A stretch of 64,000 nt of DNA from assembly GCF_032362555.1 (NCBI RefSeq), contig NC_083508.1:7159001-7223000 (forward strand), in the 5' to 3' direction. This DNA is from Amyelois transitella. Taxonomy: Eukaryota > Arthropoda > Insecta > Lepidoptera > Pyralidae. The translations under genes were made by a program, and so were the position numbers. The notes under the pieces were generated by a model. The model was not told where the DNA came from and did no database searches. It saw only the letters and a program-made list of their open reading frames with translations. Of this stretch, positions 1 to 1,883 are shown piece after piece (position 1 is the first letter of the stretch; each line of letters begins with the position of its first letter).

Positions 1-1781
1 TGACCGCTTTTTCGTGTTTACTGCTTTCCTTGTGTCAGTTTGGTGACCGCCCCTCAGTAGTCCATGCTCGCTCATGTCAGAATATTTTACTCTTTTCGAA
101 TAATAGCTCAAAGTTATTTTGTCTTCAATGCCTCACATGGGATTGCAGTATTAGAGAATGATGCATCGTCATATAAATAACAGCTGATTTCCTAAGTCAT
201 ATTTTCAGGACAGCTCTATTATTCATTACTAATAATAATTTGTAATCGTCTAAACTACTCCATTTCTTAATTCTGAATGACTTTTTAGACTTTTTTTTCA
301 TTATGTACTTATTTTGGCGTATGTTTCTTATATTTATAATAATTGCCATTTTATTAATAGTGTGTGTAGTTTGGATGAAATTCATTCTGAAGTATTTAAT
401 TAATACAAACTTAGATTGATATGTCTTAATATTTCCTGTCCACTTTACATTAATATCAGTTTGTTTCGGTCATATGCTTCCTAACAAGGGAAAAGTTATT
501 TTCATTAGTTTTGGGCATGTATATTTCGCTGATTCTAAAAAATGTGTTAAAATATTAAATTTTGTAACGTTATTTTTCCTTAGAGTAACTATGGTGCATT
601 ACTAGTTTGGCTTTTCCTCGAATGTCACATGTGTCTTCCTCGTTAGAGTTTGTGTCTGTCGTGGGATAGTACTGAGAGCTTGTTGCATTGCAGTGCGGCA
701 CTCAGCCGGCCGCTACAATCTTCTCGAAGCCCCCTCTCTAGATATATTTCATCTTGTCAAATACGGAACCTCTCTCTCTCTCTGCCCAGCATTGTTTATT
801 ACAAAAAAATGCACTCAGAATGGTAATAATAGAGCTGTCATTGCTTTTATAAGTGTAAGCGTTTCGTACGATCAGCAACTTGTTTGCCACTTTCACAACT
901 CGTCTCTTCCACTGTATTGTGTGCTGTGCTAGCTGCTTTTTGTATCTATGGGTTATCACCACGTTTTAATAGTAGTTTACTTTATCTTAGCACAATCGAT
1001 TAATAAGAGTAATTTGGTGACGTCTTACCCAGACTTAAATATATATAATATAACTATTTAAAACTATTATTGGATTTTGTTAATCAGATATTTTGTTAAT
1101 ATAATACCTGGGGTTATTCGTTAATTGCTTTTGAAATCGTTATCCTGATGTTTTAGAGTTTTTGGCACTGTACAATTATGCACTTGTTAAGTCGAGAGTA
1201 ACTGGAAGTAGGTTAACGTTAGATGGACAATTAGTTTGTCTTATCTTTAATAGATATTATTTTGATTGTTGAATGGCGATTTTATGCTTACAAAGTGTCA
1301 CCGCAATCGTCATATCATTGTTTTAAGCTATACACACGTGTTTCGTAGGTGTGTTATAAATAGTAAGTTCTCTGTATTATTTCTAGTTCAACTAGTCTGT
1401 GATGCATGACCGGTGATTCTACTGGATAGATCAAATTGCAGCTAACATTTCACACAAATACTTGTCATTTTGATTCAGTAGTGTCTGTGAAATTAGCTTC
1501 GAAAGCGATCCTTGTACCCGACACACAGTGATACGATCTCCTACCAATAGTACAGACTACTAGGTCGAGCGACATTATATTAACTGTAATCCAAACGCTT
1601 ATGTGTACCCATTCAGCTAGAATACGCTCAAAGTATCAACGTAACGAAATAAATAATCCTCTCGATATTCCACTAGAATATTTAAATAAAGAATATGCAA
1701 TGCATAAATGTTAATTTTTGTTGCACGTTGTTTTTTGAGCGACGCTGTTTTTAATGCATGTTTTGTCTGTCTTGCATGCAG
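1..1781 (+). other. Rbfox intron, upstream part
   Basis: No exon with Rbfox similarity is visible here; the preceding RRM exon must lie outside the window. A TGCATG sits at 1403-1408, and two more abut the acceptor of the next exon. Otherwise the stretch is AT-rich non-coding sequence, and the short open frames resemble nothing known. Confidence 0.6.
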
Positions 1782-1883
1782 GGATTCGGTTTTGTAACAT
1801 TCGCAAATAGTGGTGATGCGGAGCGAGCACGAGAGCGTCTTCACGGCACCGTGGTTGAGGGCAGAAAGATAGAGGTGTGCATG
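1755..1883 (+). promoter_or_regulatory. TGCATG cluster around the 93-nt RRM exon
   Basis: TGCATG occurs at 1755-1760, at 1773-1778 (three bases before the exon at 1782, overlapping the 3' splice site) and at 1878-1883 (three bases after the exon end at 1874, within the 5' splice-site region). The enclosed exon is 93 nt, divisible by three. In vertebrate Rbfox genes a 93-nt RRM exon is skipped under the control of Fox protein binding nearby, giving a dominant-negative product. The arrangement here suggests the same autoregulation; function is inferred. Confidence 0.75.

Follow-up and report, generated by a model that had tools for sequence, protein, structure and literature searches.

We analysed a 64,000-nucleotide stretch of the genome of Amyelois transitella (NC_083508.1, positions 7,159,001 to 7,223,000; hereafter the window), which contains part of the Rbfox (A2bp1) gene. 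The exon at 1782–1874 on the forward strand is, with a probability that we put at about 0.9, an autoregulated cassette exon encoding part of the RNA recognition motif (RRM) of Rbfox; we infer that Rbfox binds around this exon and represses it, and that the product made without the exon acts as a dominant negative. The recognition word of the protein itself, UGCAUG, is found at both edges of the exon, so Rbfox is very likely able to switch off its own RNA-binding part. As an interpretation, self-repression of this exon by Rbfox is well supported.

The exon is exactly 93 nt long, is in phase 0 at both ends and encodes GFGFVTFANSGDAERARERLHGTVVEGRKIE (31 amino acids), which can be aligned over its full length to the RRM, in its second half, in Protein Data Bank structures of human RBFOX1 and RBFOX2. 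Its length, phase and coding content are those of the autoregulated Rbfox RRM exon. The gene belongs to the Rbfox family, having a Fox-type RRM and the conserved C-terminal end, and its RRM and C-terminal exons match the Rbfox proteins of Manduca and Bombyx, which were used as guides to locate the exons. Both upstream RRM exons lie to the left of the window. When the 93-nt exon is included the protein reads ..NERGSKGFGF..KIEVNNATARV.., and when it is skipped the 54-nt exon before it is joined to the exon at 2833 to give ..NERGSKVNNATARV.., in which NERGSK is followed directly by VNNATARV and the frame is intact. The original prediction, made from the sequence of the window, was right that skipping keeps the frame while removing half of the RRM, and it correctly placed the acceptor for skipping at 2833; the donor is the 54-nt exon, which ends 1,206 bases before the window begins.

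The prediction also described three TGCATG copies around the exon, and these are present on the forward strand at 1755, 1773 and 1878. Two are upstream, of which the copy at 1773 reads TGCATGCAG/ (the slash marks the splice site) and ends 3 nt short of the exon, and the copy at -27 falls in a pyrimidine-rich stretch. The third reads GAG/GTGTGCATG; its placement across the 5' splice site was slightly loose, because 1878–1883 is inside the intron (+4 to +9), where it overlaps the U1 footprint. UGCAUG sequences thus overlap or abut both splice sites. Of seven donors examined in the gene, the donor of this exon, GAG/GTGTGC, is predicted to pair least stably with U1 (-5.3 kcal/mol; the other six range from -8.0 to -9.8 kcal/mol).

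There are 42 copies of TGCATG on the forward strand of the 144 kb of joined sequence, and the Poisson probability of at least three within a given 129-nt stretch is 7.7e-6. The copies at 1755–1883 are the only triple spanning 129 nt or less on that strand, and the reverse strand of the 144 kb has none. Over the full window the hexamer shows no enrichment (39 copies on both strands, 36.35 expected), and none of the other Rbfox exons that were located has a TGCATG at its edges.

The proposed mechanism is a negative feedback in which abundant Rbfox would bind the UGCAUG sites around its own exon. As one upstream site abuts the AG and another lies in the pyrimidine-rich stretch, Rbfox bound at -27 and -9 should compete with U2AF and with recognition of the AG; at +4 it would compete with U1 on a 5' splice site that is already weak. 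The exon would then be skipped and the mRNA would join NERGSK to VNNATARV in frame. Lacking half of the RRM, the product is predicted to be a poor RNA binder and to act as a dominant-negative Rbfox that damps Rbfox activity. Related results have been described in mammals (PMC3126832, PMC5577181). Rbfox bound upstream of an exon leads to skipping, while downstream intronic binding leads to inclusion, and clones lacking the 93 nt (-93) were found in rat cortex (PMC5577181). Rbfox3 represses the equivalent exon 6 of Rbfox2: with the three Rbfox3 proteins tested, exon-6-containing mRNA in 293T cells fell from 92% to 39–48%, and the exon-skipped product is reported to be dominant negative (PMC3126832).

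Conservation of the sites was examined in a protein collection that includes open reading frames (ORFs) called on genomic contigs. These ORFs were called without regard to introns, and therefore an ORF over the exon extends into the introns and exposes intron codons. In the window, the read-through frame gives ..CMQ (TGCATGCAG) before the exon and VCM (GTGTGCATG) after it. A first search used the read-through peptide including these flanks (best 120 of 130 matches), and a second used an alignment of exon cores (best 120 of 534 matches, 49 of them new). Since nearly all matches of the first search were taken, ranking hardly shapes its counts; the new rows of the second lean to the window type, because the first member of its profile carries the flanks of the window. 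After removal of the window itself and of duplicates, 141 unique ORFs were kept, with four others excluded: P0121 (exon start absent), P0103 and P0155 (which run into the next exon) and P0107 (a fish protein with another continuation). Conservation is read here at the codon level, and the majority of rows lack a species name.

At the 5' splice site, 113 of the 141 ORFs are codon-compatible with GCATG, three of them conditionally. Compatibility with TGCATG falls in different registers, at +2 in 70 ORFs (VH[VADEG]), at +4 in 35 (VCM, the window type) and at +6 in five; the three conditional ORFs end in VPA and are compatible at +6 only if their stop codon is TGA. The background, taken from control positions +8 to +33, is 0–2 compatible ORFs at each position. 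The first search alone gives 76 compatible ORFs out of 101 (41 at +2, 28 at +4, four at +6 and three VPA) and 25 that are not, or 43 of 68 when counted by distinct core peptide.

The 3' splice site was tested in the 82 ORFs that extend six residues or more upstream of the exon, a requirement which means that an ATG start cannot mimic the pattern. Of these, 55 are compatible with GCATG at -8 (43 read CMQ and 12 have another residue before MQ), and five more carry GCATG-compatible sequence in another register. The two ends co-vary in the 82 ORFs: 56 have both elements, four the 3' element only, nine the 5' element only and 13 neither (Fisher p 1.6e-6, for rows that are in part related and so not independent). 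An additional TGCATG-compatible site at -50 to -13, like that at -27 in the window, is present in 28 of the 49 ORFs that are long enough, compared with a mean of 7.0 and a maximum of 15 in shuffles. It occurs in 26 of 37 ORFs reading MQ and in two of 12 that do not; in the 19 longer ORFs it occurs in 14, against three with such a site in the control stretch at -88 to -51.

The exact human exon peptide occurs in 15 rows, and in each of them it is preceded by MQ and followed by VHV; the seven of these rows with enough upstream sequence all read CMQ. The three database rows with the exact exon peptide of the window all read VCM after it; two of them start at MQ and are uninformative for CMQ. Four ORFs (P0041, P0042, P0044 and P0045) read CEWQ before the exon and VGAC after it, so that the 3' TGCATG is absent and a downstream site at +6 is present; judged from the codons, this type may possibly be an intermediate in the turnover of sites.

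Evidence for skipping comes from a search in which the half-RRM before the exon was joined to the exon after it. Among the best 120 of 4,898 matches, 119 have the exon-skipped junction, 117 of them with the exact DVEIIFNERGSKVNNAT and without GFGFVTF and two (P0268 and P0280) with one altered residue; the remaining match is a fish protein that retains the exon. Ranking favoured the junction, so this list speaks for the existence of skipped isoforms and not for their frequency. An exon-skipped isoform is annotated in Lepidoptera: at least 13 species are among the matches listed (orders assigned by recall), namely Ostrinia nubilalis, Bombyx mori, Leguminivora glycinivorella, Manduca sexta, Aricia agestis, Helicoverpa zea, Bicyclus anynana, Maniola hyperantus, Pararge aegeria, Pieris rapae, Pieris brassicae, Vanessa atalanta and Vanessa tameamea. 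The other arthropods listed include many bees, ants and wasps, a cockroach, locusts, beetles, sand flies, ticks, spiders and a scorpion, and two vertebrates are listed, Pelobates fuscus and Acipenser sinensis. The original prediction had staked itself on a skipped isoform and on conservation of the sites; such isoforms are annotated in these lepidopterans and many other arthropods, and compatible sequence is found at both splice sites in most orthologous ORFs, at codon resolution.

These results bear on three other explanations. It is very improbable that the exon is constitutive and its three TGCATG copies are due to chance or are by-products of splice-site preference. The lack of window-wide enrichment of the hexamer (39 against 36.35) would suit this, but the triple is the only one of its span in 144 kb, compatible sequence is kept at both edges in most orthologous ORFs while its register shifts, and 13 lepidopteran species have annotated skipped isoforms. 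We give just as little credence to a positive feedback in which the sites promote inclusion, as is usual for a downstream UGCAUG. One site is downstream of the exon, where intronic binding mediates inclusion (PMC5577181); however, it begins at +4, within the U1 footprint, the other two are upstream, which is the repressive position, and the equivalent mammalian exon is repressed by Rbfox (PMC3126832). Least credible, and rejected, is control by an RNA hairpin instead of a protein, in which UGCAUGCA, self-complementary and located at the 3' splice site, would pair with the other UGCAUG copies: TGCATGCA is palindromic and the minimum-energy fold of 1735–1905 pairs the two upstream copies, but this fold is no better than those of shuffled sequences (z +1.26; 181 of 200 were at least as stable) and the spacing and register of the sites differ between orthologs.

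Several observations weigh against autoregulation of the exon by Rbfox. Of the 141 ORFs, 28 have no compatible element at the 5' splice site, among them P0097 and P0110, which stop too soon after the exon to reveal one; at the 3' splice site the element is absent from 22 of the 82. P0005, which has the exact exon peptide of the window, reads CHQ instead of CMQ before the exon, with CM at -15, while retaining VCM. The exact hexamer is unproved in the translated ORFs because TGY and CAY codons are ambiguous. The evidence for skipping consists of annotated proteins of other species, and most of the skipped isoforms listed resemble automatic annotation models. No Drosophila protein is among the best 120 of the 4,898 matches to the skipped junction.

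Autoregulation of the RRM exon by Rbfox has close parallels in known systems. Damianov and Black (2010, RNA 16:405) reportedly found Fox sites overlapping the splice sites of Fox-1 and Fox-2, and Fox sites on either side of the exon in Drosophila. The RRM exon of mammalian Rbfox1 and Rbfox2 is orthologous to the exon described here, is also 93 nt long, can be skipped in frame to give a delta-RRM protein and has motif-compatible sequence at both splice sites. It differs in the register of the downstream site (+2 in human-type exons, +4 in window-type exons), and in that autoregulation has been tested in mammals, whereas here it is predicted from sequence. An equivalent alternatively spliced exon is reported for mammalian Rbfox1, Rbfox2 and Rbfox3 and for the Drosophila homolog, Rbfox1 (A2bp1) (PMC3126832). 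The original prediction overrated the novelty of the layout in an insect for this reason; the feedback device itself is already known and the present example is not new in kind. Autoregulation coupled to nonsense-mediated decay, as in PTB, SC35 and the cryptic exons 5* and 6* of Rbfox2 (PMC3126832), is similar in that a splicing factor controls its own pre-mRNA or that of a family member, but here the skipped mRNA stays in frame and is expected to be translated rather than degraded. Our literature search gave no other account of this exon in insects, and none that follows its sites through other invertebrates or describes a shift in the 5' register, but most subscription papers were outside its coverage and this is weak evidence of novelty. 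The sections available of PMC8742874, PMC5778076 and PMC7787662 contain nothing on the Rbfox RRM exon.

The original prediction offered deep conservation or convergence as explanations of the layout. The data favour the former, and from the codon patterns the arrangement of exon and sites looks deeply conserved. We consider it more likely than not that self-repression was already present in the common ancestor of insects and vertebrates, with the 5' element having changed register (+2, +4, +6) by lineage while always masking the donor, and with its loss accompanying loss of the 3' element. If so, selection would have kept the identity of the donor as an Rbfox site and not a fixed sequence. The +2 and +4 registers would then have a cost in U1 pairing (predicted at -5.4 and -5.3 kcal/mol, respectively). 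We rejected weak U1 pairing as a general price of the site, because one possible back-translated donor in the +6 register pairs well with U1 (-11.1 kcal/mol).

All the sequence parts of a feedback switch of mammals, also reported for Drosophila, are present in a lepidopteran, and there is evidence for their retention in distantly related animals, during which one binding site moved along the splice site. The switch is thereby a case in which selection of a regulatory element for its function, rather than for its sequence, can be tested. Experiments in which insect Rbfox is knocked down or over-expressed should count the delta-RRM isoform.

The features located are listed in Table 1. The list of Rbfox exons is incomplete, as some segments of the guide proteins had no match between 3896 and 9023. 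TGCACG at 1722 and GCACG at 1827 are possible weaker Rbfox motifs.

Table 1. Rbfox exons, splice-site features and candidate Rbfox sites, numbered from the first base of the window
Feature	Position	Strand	Basis or remark
Upstream RRM exon, ends ..PDLRNMFG	end at -1352, left of window		guide-protein match
54-nt upstream RRM exon (QYGTILDVEIIFNERGSK), donor for skipping	-1259 to -1206, left of window		guide-protein match
TGCACG, possible weaker Rbfox site	1722..1727	+	
TGCATG, upstream intron	1755..1760	+	-27 to -22 of 3' splice site
TGCATG, abuts CAG/ of 3' splice site	1773..1778	+	-9 to -4; palindrome TGCATGCA at 1773-1780
93-nt cassette exon, second half of Rbfox RRM	1782..1874	+	ORF, PDB alignment
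Exonic GCACG, possible weaker Rbfox site	1827..1831	+	
5' splice site GAG/GTGTGC	1875..1880	+	predicted U1 pairing -5.3 kcal/mol
TGCATG, downstream intron	1878..1883	+	+4 to +9; overlaps U1 footprint of 5' splice site
Next Rbfox exon, 55 nt (VNNATARVQTKKPPTVPN), acceptor on skipping	2833..2887	+	
Rbfox exon, 21 nt (VCVQWPE)	3876..3896	+	
Rbfox exon (VYYDPFLAAATADSNYRLQ)	6385..6442	+	
Rbfox exon (YGREYADPYLGHGIGPVTGYG)	9023..9086	+	
Last coding Rbfox exon (TAVYRSGYNRFAPY and stop; frame closes ..YNRFAPY)	9224..9268	+	

Elsewhere in the window, the neighbouring genes are represented at 19573–19944, 36782–37222 and 43465–43884 by an exon for a cyclic-nucleotide-binding domain (perhaps of a cGMP-dependent kinase) and by exons of an ABC transporter. 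A lengthy TA-type simple repeat is present at 45905–46343 and is visible as runs of IY in open frames. Matches to the exon peptide in viral_contigs (five loci, 46–58% identity over 35–38 residues) are probably unrelated microbial RRM proteins and were not used.

RRM matches were also found elsewhere in the assembly, which has 33 contigs and 327 Mb. Contig C15 contains a tandem array at 3085936–3163673 with a unit of 4,385 bp; within C15:3090001–3099000, 4,000 positions compared at this lag are 99.98% identical. The array has 16 partial RRM matches across about 78 kb, and its protein, encoded on the reverse strand, resembles RBM22/Slt11. Either a spliceosomal gene was recently amplified or the array is an artefact of assembly.
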